Below are positions 7,595-20,755 of a DNA stretch of 64,000 bases, one piece after another. The DNA comes from Micromonospora terminaliae (GTDB lineage: Bacteria; Actinomycetota; Actinomycetes; Mycobacteriales; Micromonosporaceae). The translations under genes and the position numbers were made by a program. Positions within the stretch are counted from its first letter, which is position 1, and the number at the start of each line of letters is the position of its first letter. The notes under the pieces are model-generated. The model did no database searches. It was not told the DNA's origin and worked only from the letters and a program-made list of their open reading frames with translations. The stretch lies in assembly GCF_009671205.1 (NCBI RefSeq), contig NZ_CP045309.1, positions 5,270,001-5,334,000 of the forward strand, in the 5' to 3' direction.

Positions 7595-10500
7595 ATGCTT
7601 CCACAAAGCCGGCGACGAAGAATGACAGCTCTGGGTACCGCACTCGCGATGACCGTCGCGCTGGTCGCCTCCAGCCCGGCCATCGCCGACGCCCGCACGA
7701 AGACGCCCCCCAAGCCGACCAGCGGCAGCGCGGCGAGCGCGCCGAGCGCCGCTGTCCCCGCGCCGGACCGGGCGCGGGTGCTCGGCGAGGCGTGGCGAAC
7801 CTCGACCGATCGGGCCTGGACGACCGCGGGCGACGCCGACGGACTTCACCTGCTGATCGCCGACGAGTCAAGCGGCTACACCTGGCGGACGGTCGCCACG
7901 CTCTCCGAGCCTGGGTTCGAAGCCGACCAGTGGATCGGCAACGCTTGCCTGACCGCGTCCGGACGCCGTGCCGTCGTCGTCTACGCCCCCCGGACGTTCA
8001 CCAACAAGCCCGACCTGTTCGATCGCGGTGGCTTCTCCGCGCTGGTGGACCTAACCACCGGGAAGGTGCGGAAGCTTGCCGTGCAGTCGTCCCTTGCCTA
8101 CTTCAACCCAGGTTGCGGTGCCGGCGAGGAAGCGGTCCTCACCCAGGGCGATGAGGGCGTCAAGCGCACCCGCCTGCTGCGGGTCGACACGTCGAACGGT
8201 CGGATCAAGCAGCGCATTCCCGTCAAGGGCCAGCTCACCTCCGCCGTACCCGCCGCCGGCGGGATCGTCGCGGCCGACCGCGGCGCGCTGGTCCGCGTGG
8301 ACGCCAAGGGCAACCGTCGTCTGCTGGTCCGCACGTCGAGTGTGCCGTTCCGGGTCGCTCCCGATGCGGCCGGCGGTGTGGTCTTCATGGAACGCGACAA
8401 GGCGGAGCGGGCGGTGGTTCATCGGGTTGCCCCGCCTTCAAAGGGTAGGAGCGCCAGCTCAGCGACCAGGTTGGCGGTCGGCGGACTGACCGACGTGGAC
8501 GTGACGACCGGTCGCGGCGGGCGGGTCTTCGTGACCGGCGCCCCGCAGTCCACCGCTCCCGGCGCCTCGGCGAGCGTTCGTCTGCTCGACGTACCGGCCG
8601 GATCGCGGATCTCAACCGAGGGACGGCTCGCGCTCACCTCCGTGCGATCCAGTGCCTCGGTCAGCGCGAGCAGCGCGGCCACCGGACAGGACGCGGTGCG
8701 GAAGGTCGACATCTCGGCTCGCGCCACGTCCACCGGTCGGTCCGTCAGCTTCCGCGCCGATCCCGGGCAGGGGCCCGCCACTGCTGACAACCGCGCCGCC
8801 GGACGGGCGCTGAGCCCTGCCGTCATGGCGGGGAAGCCAGCTGGCGCCGGCGCCCGAGTGATGGCAGCGGATCCGAACAACCCCGCCGACTTCAACGAGC
8901 GCTACTGCTCGGTGCCGCGCAACGATCCCGCCAACCAGGCCATGCAGCCCAAGCCCCGTCAGGTCGAATGGGCGGTCGACCAGGCAGTGCGCGGCGTGTT
9001 GAACGTCAACCGTCCGGCGAACTGGAAGAACCTCAACATGCCGGCGTACACCCCGCAGGGGCTGTTCCCCTCCGTCCAGTTGGTGACGGGTGGTGTGGTG
9101 CCAGCCCAGGTGATGCTGGGGATCGCGGCGCAGGAGTCGAACCTGTGGCAGGCGGCGCGGTTCGCGGTGCCTGGCGTGACTGCCAACCCGCTGATCGGCA
9201 ACTACTTCGGTCTTGACATCTACAACGACAGTACGGCCGACGACTGGTCGATCAACTGGGGCCACGCGGACTGCGGTTACGGCGTCATGCAGGTGACCGA
9301 TCACATGCGGCTCGCCGGCAAGGAGAAGGGCCCCGAGGACACGGCCTGGCCGTACCAGAAGCAGCGGGCCGTCGCCCTCGACTTCGCCGCCAATATCGCG
9401 GCCGGGCTGCAGATCCTGCAGACGAAGTGGAACCAGGTGAACGGGAACGGGCTGGTCATCAACAACGGTGACGCGTCGAAGATCGAGAACTGGTTCTTCG
9501 CGGTGTGGGCCTACAACTCGGGCTTCTACCCGAGCCAGGGCGACGACACGCCGTGGGGAGTGGGCTGGTCGAACAACCCGGTCAACCCGAAGTACCCGGC
9601 GAACCGTAAGCCGTTCCTCGACGAGACATACGCCGACGCCGCCCACCCACAGGACTGGCCGTACCCGGAGAAGGTGATGGGGTGGGCCGGCCATCCGGTA
9701 GAGGTCCTGGAGGCGCCCGACGTCCTGGTGGCTGGCTACCGGCCGGCGTGGTGGAACGGTGACAGCAAAACCGGTCCCGAGCGTCGACGCCAGGTGAAGC
9801 CCCCGCTCACTCAGTTCTGTGACCAGAGCAACGACTGCGAGCCCGGCGCGTTGCACTGGCCCGACGCGCCCGAGGTGCGGGGCGAGCCGGCCGGCCCGTG
9901 CGCCCACCAGGACGCCTCGGGGCGCTACGACCTGCTCTGCTGGTATCACCAGCCGAGCACCTGGAAGACAGACTGCGACCTGACCTGCGGAAATGAGCTG
10001 TTGCGATTCGACCCGGGCTACGCCTACCAGGACGATGGGACGGCCTACCCGCCCCGGTGCGACCTCTCCGGCCTGCCCTCGAACGCTCGCGTCATCGATG
10101 ACGTCTCGGACAGCACCCCCTCGATCCGCCCCTCCTGCCCGCGGACCTGGACCAACAGCGGAAGCATGACGCTGAGTTTCGTCAACGACGGGTACGGCAA
10201 CTATCCCGGCAAGATCGACACCCATCAGATCGGTGGGGGCTTCGGTGGGCACTTCTGGTTCACCCACACCAGGACCAGCGGGGACACCGGCGGGAAGCTC
10301 CAGGTCAACGCCACCTGGAAGCTGAACACCTCATACAACGGGCCGATGAAGGTCTTCGTGGCTCTACCCGATCACGGAGCGCACACCAAGCTCGCGCGAT
10401 ACGTCGTGACCACCGCCCAGGGCCAGCGGGAGCGGCTCGTCCGGCAGCCGGGGACAGGTAACCGCTGGGTGTCCATCGGCGCGTTCATGTTCAACAACAT

Positions 10501-11887
10501 TCCCCAGGTCAGCCTCAGCTCGGTCACTCCGGACGGAGACGGCACCCAGGACATCGCCTTCGACGCGGTCGCCTTCGCCCCGATCGCGGGCACGTTCAAG
10601 GAGGAGTCCGTCGAGGCGGTCGCCGTCTTCGACGAGGACCAGAACATCGACGCGGCATCCACGATGAGTTGGCTGACCGGTCCGCTGGGCAGCCGACAGA
10701 ACCTGTACGACTGGGGCATGGAGCAGACCGGCGGCATCCTGGCCCTGCCGGCATGCCCGGCGTCGGGCGACTGCGCCGCCGCCTCGGTGCGAACCTTCGC
10801 GCAGCAGTGGCGGGACCAAGTCACCGGAGCCGGCACCGATCCGGTCAACCACCCCCAGGGCCTGAGCATCGGCCGCTGGATCGGCTTCGCCCAGCCCTAC
10901 ACGGACAGGCCGACGAGCAACAGCCGGCCCGCTCACTTCGACAACGACGACCGGATCAAGATCAGGTCGAAGGCCACCGTCTCCTTCGTGGCCGACAGCG
11001 GGGGGAAGGTCATTCCGGGCAGTGAGTGGGTCGAGTACACGCACCGAACCGGCAACACCCATCTGCCGGAGTTCGTGATGAAGTTCTTCGACGCCGTCAA
11101 ATCCGCGTACGGGATCGCCCCGCCCAACCTGACCTACCGAATCAAGGATCTCAACGCGCACAACGGCGCCTACACGACCGCCAATCCGGCCACCAACGGC
11201 ATCCTCCCCGGCCGGGCGTACGCGACCGCCGGGAAGGCGCCGTCTCTGGTCGACTCGGCCGGAAACCCCACGCAGACCAATGCCACCTGCGTTGCCGCGC
11301 TACAGGTGTCCGGCGGATCGATCGGCTACCGGCCGATGCTGGGCGAGGACGGCCCGGACTCGGCGATGTCGGCCTACGTGAACCGGCTCGGTGACAGCGG
11401 CGCGGTGCCGGACAAGGTACGCGATCTGGCCGAGGAGATCCGCGAGCTGTTCTTCGACAACGGGCTCCCCGGAATCGACGGCAGCGCTTTCACCCAGGCC
11501 GCGCCAATCTGGCAGGAGCTCAATTTCAAGGCCTGCTCGGATGGCACTGTCAAGCAGAACAACCGGCCAATCCTGCGGGGCAGCTGGATGCCCGACCAAT
11601 ACCTCTACCACAATGGCATTGCAATGACCCAAACCGGAGCATCGACCACGAGCAAGGGCCCGCTGTGGACGGGGAACTTCAAGAACTTCAGCCAAACCCC
11701 GGACCCGAACCAGACCTATCCCCTCTGGCCCAACGCCTACGGAGTGTGCGACGCGGCGACGGACCGGTCGGGCAATCCCTGGGACATGTCTCCGCTACCC
11801 ACTCCGGAGGATCCCGGAATCAATCCAGCCACTGCGCACTTCTGCGTCGACAAGAACCTCGCCCGCGACCCTTCACACAGTAACTGA
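7595..11887 (+). CDS. Giant secreted protein with transglycosylase (SLT) domain and golvesin-C-like domain
   Basis: Exported protein of 1430 residues. Signal peptide about 1-32 (ends SSPAIADA). Residues 45-390 look like beta-strand repeats, possibly a propeller. A lysozyme-like SLT domain follows at about 490-640: catalytic candidate Glu514 in AAQESNLWQA, then CGYGVMQVTDHM and FFAVWAYNSGFYP. After a Cys-rich stretch (CDQSNDC, CWYHQPS, CDLTCG) comes a golvesin-C-like beta domain at about 850-1000, and a roughly 430-residue unassigned C-terminus. The ATG is six codons into the frame, directly behind GGGGAGGA. The architecture resembles NocE-like proteins of actinomycetes; wall-muramidase activity is inferred from the SLT motifs only. 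Confidence 0.88.
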   Translation: MLPQSRRRRMTALGTALAMTVALVASSPAIADARTKTPPKPTSGSAASAPSAAVPAPDRARVLGEAWRTSTDRAWTTAGDADGLHLLIADESSGYTWRTVATLSEPGFEADQWIGNACLTASGRRAVVVYAPRTFTNKPDLFDRGGFSALVDLTTGKVRKLAVQSSLAYFNPGCGAGEEAVLTQGDEGVKRTRLLRVDTSNGRIKQRIPVKGQLTSAVPAAGGIVAADRGALVRVDAKGNRRLLVRTSSVPFRVAPDAAGGVVFMERDKAERAVVHRVAPPSKGRSASSATRLAVGGLTDVDVTTGRGGRVFVTGAPQSTAPGASASVRLLDVPAGSRISTEGRLALTSVRSSASVSASSAATGQDAVRKVDISARATSTGRSVSFRADPGQGPATADNRAAGRALSPAVMAGKPAGAGARVMAADPNNPADFNERYCSVPRNDPANQAMQPKPRQVEWAVDQAVRGVLNVNRPANWKNLNMPAYTPQGLFPSVQLVTGGVVPAQVMLGIAAQESNLWQAARFAVPGVTANPLIGNYFGLDIYNDSTADDWSINWGHADCGYGVMQVTDHMRLAGKEKGPEDTAWPYQKQRAVALDFAANIAAGLQILQTKWNQVNGNGLVINNGDASKIENWFFAVWAYNSGFYPSQGDDTPWGVGWSNNPVNPKYPANRKPFLDETYADAAHPQDWPYPEKVMGWAGHPVEVLEAPDVLVAGYRPAWWNGDSKTGPERRRQVKPPLTQFCDQSNDCEPGALHWPDAPEVRGEPAGPCAHQDASGRYDLLCWYHQPSTWKTDCDLTCGNELLRFDPGYAYQDDGTAYPPRCDLSGLPSNARVIDDVSDSTPSIRPSCPRTWTNSGSMTLSFVNDGYGNYPGKIDTHQIGGGFGGHFWFTHTRTSGDTGGKLQVNATWKLNTSYNGPMKVFVALPDHGAHTKLARYVVTTAQGQRERLVRQPGTGNRWVSIGAFMFNNIPQVSLSSVTPDGDGTQDIAFDAVAFAPIAGTFKEESVEAVAVFDEDQNIDAASTMSWLTGPLGSRQNLYDWGMEQTGGILALPACPASGDCAAASVRTFAQQWRDQVTGAGTDPVNHPQGLSIGRWIGFAQPYTDRPTSNSRPAHFDNDDRIKIRSKATVSFVADSGGKVIPGSEWVEYTHRTGNTHLPEFVMKFFDAVKSAYGIAPPNLTYRIKDLNAHNGAYTTANPATNGILPGRAYATAGKAPSLVDSAGNPTQTNATCVAALQVSGGSIGYRPMLGEDGPDSAMSAYVNRLGDSGAVPDKVRDLAEEIRELFFDNGLPGIDGSAFTQAAPIWQELNFKACSDGTVKQNNRPILRGSWMPDQYLYHNGIAMTQTGASTTSKGPLWTGNFKNFSQTPDPNQTYPLWPNAYGVCDAATDRSGNPWDMSPLPTPEDPGINPATAHFCVDKNLARDPSHSN

Positions 11888-17476: not shown

Positions 17477-18166
17477 GTGAGCACACCGGAACTCACACCG
17501 TTGTCCCTCGACGAGTTGGCCGCAGAGGCGGCGACCGCGCTGCCCACGAAGGAGGTGATCTCCCTCCTCGACCTCAACGTGGACCTCGACCTCGGGCTGG
17601 ATCTCGCGGCGCCGATCGACCTCGCGGTGGCCGCCAACGCCAACGTCGCCGCCCCGATCGACGCCGCTGTGGGCGCCAACATCCTCTCCACGGGCTCGAC
17701 CGCGGCCGCCCTGTCCGACCAGGGCGTCCTCATCGACCAGACCATCTCCGGCCACGCGATCGCCACCGCTCCCCAGGACAGCGCGATCGACCAGTCCAAC
17801 GACGTGATCGACGACGGCACGACCGACCCGGGCACCGCGGACCCGGGCACCACCGACCCCGGCACCGGTGGCACGACCGACGGAGACGTCACCGTCCCGA
17901 CCGACCCGGCGTCGATGCTCGACGGCGACCTGCTGAACGTCGACGTCAACGTGGCCCTCGACGCCGACCTCGCCGCGCCGGTCGCCGGCGCGGTCGCCGC
18001 CAACGCCAACGTCGCGGCGCCGATCGACGCCGCCGTCTCCGCGAACGTCGCGTCGGTGGACTCCAGCGCCACCGCCATCTCCCAGCAGGACGCGATCATC
18101 ACCCAGCACCTCGACGACGTGACGGCGCGCGCCACGGCCGACCAGCAGGCCGAGATCACCCAGTAG
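17477..18166 (+). CDS. Acidic two-fold repeat protein, putative substrate of the adjacent M50 protease
   Basis: A 229-residue protein with no Cys, Phe, Trp or Tyr and almost no basic residues (one Lys, one Arg). It has no signal peptide; the N-terminus (STPELTPLSLDELAAEAATA then LPTKEVISLLDLNVDL) reads like the leader of a ribosomally made peptide. Two homologous blocks (about 30-106 and 152-229) share AAPxxxAVAANANVAAPIDAAV and a run of Ser/Thr/Gln/Asp, joined by a TTDPGTADPGTTDPG linker. The GTG start follows GGAG by six bases. The protease gene starts two bases after the stop. No family recognised; function as precursor or secreted surface protein is inference. Confidence 0.85.
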   Translation: MSTPELTPLSLDELAAEAATALPTKEVISLLDLNVDLDLGLDLAAPIDLAVAANANVAAPIDAAVGANILSTGSTAAALSDQGVLIDQTISGHAIATAPQDSAIDQSNDVIDDGTTDPGTADPGTTDPGTGGTTDGDVTVPTDPASMLDGDLLNVDVNVALDADLAAPVAGAVAANANVAAPIDAAVSANVASVDSSATAISQQDAIITQHLDDVTARATADQQAEITQ

Positions 18167-18168
18167 CG

Positions 18169-20667
18169 ATGAGTGTCATCTCGCCGTCCGGCCCGATCAC
18201 CTCGCAAGGGCGGGGCGCCGTCAGCACGGTGCTCCGCCCTGCGGGGGGTTCCCGACCGGAGCCGGACACCGCCGAGGCCACCGGATCCGGCCCGCGGGAG
18301 GTCGTGCCCGCCCACGCGCCGGGACTGGAACTGCTGGGCGAACTGCCGGGCTCCGGGTATCGCCAACCACCCGGGCTGGTACGGCGTGACGACGGCCAGA
18401 CCTGCCAGCTCACCCGGCTGTTGTATCTCGTTCTCGAGGCGATGGACGGCCGGCGCGGCTACCCGGAGATCGCGGCGCTGGTCAGCCGGAGGATCGACCG
18501 TCTGGTCACCGCGGACAACGTGCGCATGCTGACCGAGCAGAAGCTGCGCCCGCTCGGCCTCATCGCACGGTCCGACGGCGCCGCACCGACGGCGCGCAAG
18601 GCCAATCCCCTGCTGGCGCTGCGGTTCCGACTCGTGGTCTCCAACCCGCGGGTGACCCGACGGATCACCCGGCCGTTCGCGGCCCTGTTCCGCCCACCGG
18701 TCGTCGCCCTCGTCCTGGTCGCCTTCCTGCTGTCCACCGGATGGGTGCTGTTCGAGAAGGGGCTCGCCTCCGCCACCCACCAGGTGTTCGACAGGCCGGG
18801 CCTGCTGCTGCTGGTCTTCGCCATCACCATCGTCTCGGCCGGCTTCCACGAGTTCGGGCACGCCGCGGCCTGCCGGTACGGCGGCGCCACCCCCGGCACC
18901 ATGGGCGTGGGCCTGTACCTGGTCTGGCCCGCCTTCTACACCAACGTCGACGACAGCTACCGGCTCGGACGGGCGGGCCGGATCCGCGTCGACCTCGGCG
19001 GCCTGTACTTCAACGCGATCGTCGCGGTGGCGATCTTCGCCACCTGGGCGGTCACCCGGTGGGACGCGCTGCTGCTCGTCATCGTCGCCCAGGTCCTGCA
19101 GATGCTCCGGCAACTGGCGCCGTTCGTCCGCTTCGACGGCTATCACATCCTGGCGGACCTGACCGGGGTGCCGGACCTCTATGCCCGCATCAAGCCGACG
19201 CTGCTCGGCCTGCTCCCGACCCGGTGGAACCGCCCGGAGTCCAAGGTGCTGAAGCCGTGGGCCCGGGTGGTGGTGACCCTGTGGGTGCTGATCGTGGTGC
19301 CCCTGCTCCTGATCACGCTGGTGCTGATGGTGACGGCCCTGCCCCGTGTCGTGGCGACCGCCTGGCAGGGCCTGCAGCGCCAGTCCGTGCTCCTGGTCGC
19401 GAACTGGGTGGACGGGGACGTCCCCAGCATCGGCGTCCGGCTGCTGTCCGTGCTCGCCATCTGCCTGCCCCTGCTCGGCACGGCGTACCTCCTGGTCCGG
19501 CTGGTGCGGCGGACGGTCCGCTCGGTCTGGCGGGCCACGGCGGGCCGGCGGCTGCATCGCGTCGGCGCGGTGGTGGCCGGCGGCGCGCTGGTGGCGGCGC
19601 TGGTCTGGGCCTGGTGGCCGGACCCGGCGACCTACCGGCCGGTGCAGGAGCACGAGCGCGGGACCGTCGCCGACGCACTGCCCGCCGGGCAGCGGCATTC
19701 CGCCGTGCCGGCGGTCGAGCCGACGCTCCGGGTCGGGGAGCGGCGGACGGTGACCACCGTCTGGCCCGGCGCCACCACGCCACCCACCCCGGGCGAGCAG
19801 CGACTGGCGCTCGTCCTGGTGCCCCGGGAGCCCGCCTCGCCCGCGGCCGGCGGGCACCCGCGATCGACCTGGGTCTTCCCGTTCAACCCGCCGGAGGCAC
19901 CGGGCCCGGGTGACAACCAGGCCCTGGCGGTCAACACCCGGGACGGCTCCACCGTCTACGACGTGGCGTTCGCCCTCGTGTGGGCCGACGGGGACGAGGG
20001 CGACGTCGACAACCGCAACGAGGCGTACGCCCTGGCGAGCTGCCGGGACTGCCGCACCGTGGCGGTCTCGTTTCAGGTGGTGCTCGTCGTCGGGCCCGCC
20101 GACGTGATCGTGCCGGAGAACGTGTCGGCCGCCGTGAACTACTCCTGCCGGGACTGCCTGACGTACGCGGTGGCCTCGCAACTCGTGTTCACCCTGCCCG
20201 AGGGGCTGAGCGACGACACGAAGGACCGCATCACCGCGCTGTGGCGGGAGATCGAGCGGTTCGGCCAGCACATCCGGGGGCTCGGTCCGCAGGAGATCCA
20301 GGTCCGCCTGGAGGGGTTCAAGGCACAGATCGTGGAGATCATCGGGCAGGATCCGGCGGTCGCGGCGACGGCCGGCGGCACGCCCTCCGCGACCGCTACG
20401 ACCGCGGTGCCGGCCGCCGGCACGACCCCGAGCCCCACCGACACGCCGTCCGTCGCGCCGTCGGCGCCCGCCGGCTCCACCGCACCGGCGGCCGACACCC
20501 CGTCGCCCGCGGACTCCGCGTCCACCTCACCGGTGCCCACCCCGTCGGGTACGACTCCGTCGGCCACCCCGGCCGAGGGGTCACCGTCGGCCACCACCGT
20601 CCAGGAGTCCCCGTCGGACGCCACGGCCGAGGGGTCGGAGATGGCGACACCGACGCCGGTCGGCTGA
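18169..20667 (+). CDS. PqqD-like/M50-type membrane zinc metalloprotease with secreted CRDC domain
   Basis: An 832-residue protein. About residues 40-145 form a PqqD-like winged domain (PPGLVRRDDGQTCQLTRLLY, then YPEIAALVSRR). A polytopic core of roughly seven helices (about 180-490) carries the zinc site HEFGH at 227-231 inside a helix and a DLGGLYFNA segment (Asp275, Asn282) expected to give the third ligand, as in site-2 proteases. The outer C-terminal part contains two CRDC motifs (Cys625/628 and Cys660/663) in similar beta-rich surroundings and ends in a Ser/Thr/Pro tail of about 95 residues. It belongs to the putative peptide zinc metalloprotease group and is translationally linked to the repeat-protein gene. 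Confidence 0.88.
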   Translation: MSVISPSGPITSQGRGAVSTVLRPAGGSRPEPDTAEATGSGPREVVPAHAPGLELLGELPGSGYRQPPGLVRRDDGQTCQLTRLLYLVLEAMDGRRGYPEIAALVSRRIDRLVTADNVRMLTEQKLRPLGLIARSDGAAPTARKANPLLALRFRLVVSNPRVTRRITRPFAALFRPPVVALVLVAFLLSTGWVLFEKGLASATHQVFDRPGLLLLVFAITIVSAGFHEFGHAAACRYGGATPGTMGVGLYLVWPAFYTNVDDSYRLGRAGRIRVDLGGLYFNAIVAVAIFATWAVTRWDALLLVIVAQVLQMLRQLAPFVRFDGYHILADLTGVPDLYARIKPTLLGLLPTRWNRPESKVLKPWARVVVTLWVLIVVPLLLITLVLMVTALPRVVATAWQGLQRQSVLLVANWVDGDVPSIGVRLLSVLAICLPLLGTAYLLVRLVRRTVRSVWRATAGRRLHRVGAVVAGGALVAALVWAWWPDPATYRPVQEHERGTVADALPAGQRHSAVPAVEPTLRVGERRTVTTVWPGATTPPTPGEQRLALVLVPREPASPAAGGHPRSTWVFPFNPPEAPGPGDNQALAVNTRDGSTVYDVAFALVWADGDEGDVDNRNEAYALASCRDCRTVAVSFQVVLVVGPADVIVPENVSAAVNYSCRDCLTYAVASQLVFTLPEGLSDDTKDRITALWREIERFGQHIRGLGPQEIQVRLEGFKAQIVEIIGQDPAVAATAGGTPSATATTAVPAAGTTPSPTDTPSVAPSAPAGSTAPAADTPSPADSASTSPVPTPSGTTPSATPAEGSPSATTVQESPSDATAEGSEMATPTPVG

Positions 20668-20706
20668 GACCCACCTCACCCCGTGAGCAACGGGGTGAGG
20701 TGGGTC
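20668..20706 (+). terminator. Strong terminator closing the repeat-protein/M50 operon
   Basis: A perfect 17-bp stem (20668-20684 with 20690-20706; arm begins GACCCACCTCACCCC) with a five-base loop, starting at the base after the stop codon. Confidence 0.93.
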
Positions 20707-20755
20707 TCTCGAAAACCGTTCGCCGCCTGTCGTACCCCCGCAACAGAATCCAGGC

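Follow-up and report, generated by a model that had tools for sequence, protein, structure and literature searches.

RRE domains usually serve modifying enzymes, and epipeptide clusters encode an epimerase and an ABC transporter. Daptide clusters carry genes for an oxidative decarboxylase, an aminotransferase and a methyltransferase, as described in the available part of PMC10036551. Cutting and export of an epipeptide are presumed roles of the M50 protease EpeP, according to a passage of a review (PMC10885120). A two-gene unit of Micromonospora terminaliae (assembly GCF_009671205.1, contig NZ_CP045309.1) pairs a leader-bearing repeat protein, P1, with a putative RRE-M50 protease, P2. The window analysed here is the whole 64,000-nucleotide stretch that contains this unit (contig positions 5,270,001 to 5,334,000, forward strand), and coordinates below refer to it. 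The substrate-protease pairing of the two proteins is strongly supported, and P1 is very probably the substrate of P2.

The features of the unit are as follows.

17477 to 18166, + strand: P1, putative cargo consisting of a leader and two cores, 229 amino acids, GTG start
17540 to 17563, + strand: leader motif LPTKEVIS (family form LPx[KR]E[VI]x[SA]), from a 46-row alignment and 79 of 79 homologs
17564 to 17794, + strand: core block 1, 54% identical to block 2 and matched by the single-core precursor profile
17930 to 18163, + strand: core block 2, with no leader copy of its own, from the block alignment and the single-core precursor profile
18169 to 20667, + strand: P2, putative RRE-M50 protease with a CxxC ectodomain, 832 amino acids
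18316 to 18579, + strand: RRE/PqqD-like region, about residues 50-137, from the NF041824 alignment and a Protein Data Bank (PDB) hit to PqqD (3g2b, E 1.1)
18682 to 19353, + strand: predicted M50 site-2-type membrane protease core, from matches to NF041824 and NF058609 and from hydrophobic stretches
18847 to 18861, + strand: HEFGH zinc site, residues 227-231, with H, E and H invariant in 38 rows and in 14 distant-locus rows
19132 to 19143, + strand: FDGY, residues 322-325, with an Asp that we take to be the third zinc ligand; D, G and Y invariant in the 38 and 14 rows
19876 to 20373, + strand: CxxC ectodomain with CRDC at residues 625 and 660, homologous to a stand-alone secreted protein
20374 to 20664, + strand: Ser/Thr/Pro-rich C-terminal tail of P2, from the sequence
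20666 to 20708, + strand: terminator-like perfect inverted repeat with 19-bp arms (20666-20684 and 20690-20708), a 5-nt loop and no T run

A contig scan with P1 as the only query gave at least 109 confirmed relatives, the best 80 of which were analysed. A P2 homolog lies directly downstream of P1 on the same strand in all 80 loci, which are not 80 independent lineages: 33 come from Arthrobacter or Pseudarthrobacter and the remainder from many genera, with one metagenome-assembled genome labelled Chloroflexi among them. Sequence counts for P1 homologs refer to 79 of the 80 loci, with L066 left out. The motif LPx[KR]E[VI]x[SA] occurs within the first 60 residues of every one of these homologs, and no protein carries LPx[KR]E[VI] more than once. 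In the 46-row P1 alignment, the leader columns L, P, K, E, V and S are invariant. A preliminary description of this DNA had proposed that P1 is a precursor recognised through its N-terminus and cleaved and exported by P2, and both the adjacency of the genes in other genomes and the conservation of the leader fit this proposal. Its interpretation as a whole is partly supported. The present analysis adds tandem single-core precursor genes, a separate secreted CxxC protein and a resemblance between the CxxC domain and the core.

A GGAG precedes the GTG start of P1, and the N-termini of the homologs agree with this start. The protein contains no Cys, Phe, Trp or Tyr and only one Lys and one Arg, with a net charge of about -34 at pH 7. 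Residues 30-106 and 152-229 (blocks of 77-78 residues) are 54% identical over 78 columns, and the block-against-block alignment scores 70.5 bits, whereas 200 shuffles reach at most 31.2. Recomputation thus confirmed the composition and the two homologous blocks that had been described. The absence of aromatic residues holds for the protein of the window and is not a family trait, as Cys, Phe, Trp and Tyr are all missing in just 26 of the 79 homologs; Cys alone is absent in all 79. A Pfam scan of P1 gave nothing above cut-off, and the nearest named relatives are from Micromonospora. Some homologs (P0004, P0009 and others) are labelled 'peptidoglycan-binding protein' in public databases without a listed Pfam domain, and this label is unsupported by Pfam for the P1 of the window. 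In two Nocardioides homologs, the spacer between the cores is of the beta-flower type (L068, E 1.1e-10, above the Pfam cut-off; L077, E 5.4e-7, below it). The L068 homolog is located at 9998-11464 (+) of its locus, and its spacer matches beta-flower/DUF3659 repeats.

The P2 gene starts two bases past the P1 stop codon, and this spacing, the HEFGH site and the two CRDC motifs were all located where they had been described. P2 has the hallmarks of a site-2-type M50 protease, namely HExxH and a DG motif in a membrane protein, both invariant in the family (38 and 14 rows), and it is accordingly predicted to be one. Seven hydrophobic stretches precede residue 481, and an eighth (residues 630-648) lies in the ectodomain between the CRDC motifs. 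The daptide intramembrane protease model NF041824 aligns with residues 70-382 at E 1.7e-29, below its cut-off. A Pfam scan of P2 gave nothing above cut-off (PF02163, 14.4 bits against the 27.2 required), and the P2 sequence alone had no match in PDB. With profile A4, PqqD (3g2b) was the top PDB match, at the expected place. The perfect inverted repeat after P2 was confirmed, but its arms are 19 bp instead of the 17 bp reported, and no T run follows.

The P1 profile matched 19 of 396 genomes of the phylum, 8 with a long P1 and 11 with small open reading frames (ORFs), mostly two to four close together. These short precursors, of about 70 amino acids, consist of a leader and one core, both shared with P1, and have the consensus LxxEELExQxGExLPxREEMSLINANVAAPVNAAVAANVLSDDSVAYANAEQxxxIDQST (21 rows). 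The RRE-M50 profile (E ≤ 1e-30) was found in 25 of the 396 genomes and in 18 of the 19 with a precursor or P1 (Fisher P = 1.5e-24); precursor and protease lie within about 2 kb of each other in 17 of the 19. In distant actinobacteria the system is an unfused set of tandem precursors and an RRE-M50 protease, often with a separate, putatively secreted CxxC protein. A search of the protein database with the short-precursor profile gave at least 8000 matches (8000 of 8000 scored candidates), with no functional names among the 120 matches listed. Systems of this kind form a large and as yet unnamed family in actinobacteria, of which the pair is a member. Among viral contigs, 100 pattern matches to short precursors were obtained and none was confirmed.

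Small leaderless proteins with a QRxGxT tail are located near the precursor arrays or the protease at three loci (L118, 1804-2064, +; L121, 5613-5813, +; L146, 6263-6520, -). Two of them have core-like segments, and a chaperone or accessory role is possible. The precursor/CxxC loci L121 and L123 adjoin genes that by eye resemble nusG, rplK and rplA.

All 8 genomes with a long P1, the window included, carry the CxxC domain as part of the protease. Of the 11 genomes that lack a long P1, 5 encode near the precursors a separate CxxC protein with a signal-peptide-like N-terminus (by eye), and in 3 of these 5 a homologous putative lipoprotein (25-31% identical) is encoded next. One stand-alone CxxC protein has 145 relatives, the 120 listed being 182-287 amino acids long. 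P2 is a fusion of two proteins that are neighbours elsewhere, and this argues that the protease, the cargo and the CxxC domain work in one pathway. At one locus (L078, 8980-9834, +), a stand-alone copy of the ectodomain lies just upstream of P1 in addition to the fused one.

The core and the CxxC domain have a common P-x-N...N...A-x-A-x-Q pattern with equal spacing, which was seen by eye and then tested. The single-core profile (29 sequences) scored 25.7 against the profile of 120 stand-alone CxxC proteins and 26.5 against that of 77 ectodomains, and the consensus alignment is gap-free over about 30 columns. Column permutations, 300 for each comparison, all stayed below these scores, with 23.4 and 20.3 as their respective maxima, and the reversed core scored 18.3 and 16.1. 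The two domains are likely but not proven to be related. Since the resemblance exceeds the permutations, P2 may carry a relative of the module of its own cargo.

Related RRE-M50 loci with other cores were represented by a sister set of 11 loci, comprising seven protease genomes without a P1-type precursor, three second copies and the lone protease of genome G167. A small ORF with a Glu-bearing stretch and an LPx[RK] leader is found within 1.5 kb upstream on the same strand in 10 of these 11 loci; the G167 locus has no ORF with such a leader. LPx[RK]-leader ORFs make up 14 of the 70 upstream ORFs, one of the 14 looking spurious, versus 15 of the 514 elsewhere (P = 6.6e-7, an optimistic value because the leader pattern was written after these ORFs had been read). 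Behind these leaders the cores vary: some are hydrophobic, some are chaplin-like and others are rich in Gly and His and contain Cys. In HHalign, the chaplin-like set (4 rows) scored 23.2 against the chaplin profile, with 60 permutations at 14.7 or less; Pfam ChpA-C matched one of the four precursors (E 0.03, below the cut-off). Leaders of the LPEREMMAL type precede chaplin-like cores in the same protease clade at L145 (5842-6207, -), L143 (3714-3983, +) and L127 (8336-8620, -). At L137 (2514-3911, +), an RRE-M50 gene is preceded by three LPER-leader ORFs in tandem, whose cores are Gly/His-rich and contain Cys.

The mechanism that we propose begins with the leader of P1, ELAAExxxxLPxKEVxS, which would be held by the RRE domain at the P2 N-terminus. 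Such binding is highly likely. The M50 domain would then cleave P1 inside the membrane, either at the leader or directly behind it, and the part with the two cores would be released outside, chemically unmodified; cleavage and externalisation by P2 are likely. EpeP is the precedent for one M50 protein that both cuts and exports, a role thought but not shown in the passage of PMC10885120 concerned. The released cores may self-associate or join the displayed CxxC ectodomain of P2, resulting in a surface layer or fibre. The conservation of the core above that of the upstream leader, the repeats, the beta-flower spacer and the chaplin-like sister cores all point to a structural surface product, which we rate as about an even chance against a signal or toxin. 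That the ectodomain serves as a cargo-like capture or nucleation site is a possibility to which we give less than even weight. The scheme as a whole, a leader-guided and modification-free export platform for self-associating surface proteins, is somewhat favoured.

Released cores acting as a signal or an antibacterial peptide, instead of structural material, are an unlikely explanation, albeit the one that survives best among the alternatives. Leader, RRE and M50 protease are combined in the same way in daptides, epipeptides and similar peptide systems, the precursor genes are in tandem and the distribution is patchy. However, conservation of the core is high both among paralogs and across lineages, with a mean majority fraction of 0.79 in 39 core columns versus 0.56 in 21 upstream leader columns (21 sequences). 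The lack of Cys in every long P1, the two-core and spacer-bearing forms and the existence of a cargo-like secreted partner also speak against this explanation.

It is rather improbable that the pair makes a true ribosomally synthesized and post-translationally modified peptide (RiPP), with the core modified by an enzyme encoded elsewhere or with the CxxC ectodomain itself acting as a modifying or redox enzyme. The usual role of RRE domains alongside modifying enzymes would fit this explanation, as would the four ectodomain Cys, which are invariant in 38 rows and in 25 rows. However, no modifying-enzyme gene is conserved around the 80 loci as called with a crude ORF caller, and none was noticed by eye among the precursor-locus ORFs listed. 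With the same caller, the largest extra neighbour family (beyond P1, P2 and ORFs antisense to P1) occurs at 16 of the 80 loci, all in Arthrobacter or Pseudarthrobacter. The earlier statement that no modifying enzyme is nearby therefore holds within the range tested. In Pfam scans of three CxxC proteins and three lipoproteins, likewise, no family came out above cut-off. A role of P1 inside the cell as an inhibitor or adaptor that regulates P2, with P2 cleaving another protein, is very doubtful. In its favour, no signal peptide is seen by eye in P1 and no 19-residue stretch has a mean hydropathy above 1.3, but the tandem multi-copy precursors, the varied cores behind one leader and the beta-flower-type spacer in two members suit cargo better.

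Several observations weigh against leader-guided export of a structural cargo. The PDB match of the RRE/PqqD region of P2 has a weak E value (1.1). The AlphaFold2 model of P1 from the 46-row alignment has strands in both blocks but is poor (pLDDT 51, pTM 0.21), so that no P1 fold is established. As stated in the available part of PMC10885120, EpeX production persists after deletion of epeP. Among the 19 genomes, G006 carries its precursors on a 5.6-kb contig of a draft genome without a protease match, and in G167 the protease is on another contig than the precursors. No CxxC gene was found in the fetched stretch of 6 of the 11 precursor genomes without a long P1, several of whose contigs end nearby. 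Long-P1 modules used as the query against the CxxC profiles gave weak matches (P = 0.26 and 0.0088). A chaplin origin of the P1-type core was rejected, as 12 of 60 permutations reached the score. Finally, P1 is present in only 5 of 160 genomes of the genus, the window's own included, indicating that it serves no general cell-surface need.

In the four other genomes of the genus with P1, this protein is better conserved (85-92%) than P2 (71-81%). One of these loci (L188) has flanking genes on both sides in common with the window. In the other three (L189, L190 and L191), the pair is located at chromosomal sites other than that of the window, and none of the eight window flanking genes tested was found in the 18 kb covered. 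L189 and L190 have a common neighbourhood of their own, and each matches L191 over no more than about 3.2 kb, which is the pair. The similarity confined to the pair, with other flanks, indicates that the pair moves as a unit. A search of phage records with P2 gave no match. Among plasmids, 53 records were obtained, the best with 45% coverage at 42% identity, and none reached 80% coverage.

If the proposed scheme is true, one protease clade would account for at least 8000 precursor-like database proteins as its cargo, and RiPP-type leader recognition would also serve ordinary structural proteins as an export route, much like a signal peptide. With just two genes, the pair would give simple access to surface assembly in actinobacteria, and it suggests a testable explanation of how M50 RiPP proteases bring their products out of the cell.

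Among the matches listed in searches of the open-licence literature, none describes the P1-P2 pair, and five core and leader strings had no match there. Pfam and NCBIfam scans of precursors, CxxC proteins and lipoproteins gave no family that reached its cut-off. Chaplins are exported by ordinary signal peptides. In the four sister precursors, which belong with the same protease clade, the chaplin-like core has the form VxVPxxxAANVCG, whereas the P1-type core has no similarity to chaplins (PF03777), the P1 of the window has no Pfam match and PF03777 has no match in the window's genome. With the curli proteins CsgA and CsgB the system may share no more than a logic, that of repeats spaced by Q and of a subunit relative held at the membrane that could nucleate; the secretion route is different, and the Pfam curli repeats had no match at E ≤ 1.

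Among the protease families, EpeP/YydH/LiaK (NF058609) has the M50 core in common with P2, but P2 reaches 47 bits against a cut-off of 225 and falls outside the epipeptide family; its cargo is of a different type, and the epimerase and ABC transporter genes are not conserved at the P1-P2 loci. The protease MpaP (NF041824) resembles P2 in combining an RRE-like region with an M50 protease beside leader-bearing precursors. P2 reaches 103 bits of the 300 required for assignment to the daptide family, and no daptide partner enzyme is conserved beside the 80 loci. In contrast to the MpaP system, the cargo here is a 229-amino-acid repeat protein and the protease carries an ectodomain. The leader-core layout of RiPP precursors is found throughout the P1 family (79 of 79 homologs with the leader) and in the short forms too. 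The system resembles RiPP leader processing by an RRE-M50 protease with no modification evident, outside both the daptide and the epipeptide assignments, and it has a fair chance of being a distinct export system. In its most specific form, which we put forward tentatively as just short of an even prospect, an RRE-guided intramembrane protease would recognise LPx[RK] as the leader shared by several kinds of unmodified, self-associating core (beta-repeat, chaplin-like and others) and export these, a CxxC domain related to the cargo module and displayed either in fusion or as a separate secreted protein would capture or nucleate the polymer, and the operon of the window would be such a system collapsed into two genes.

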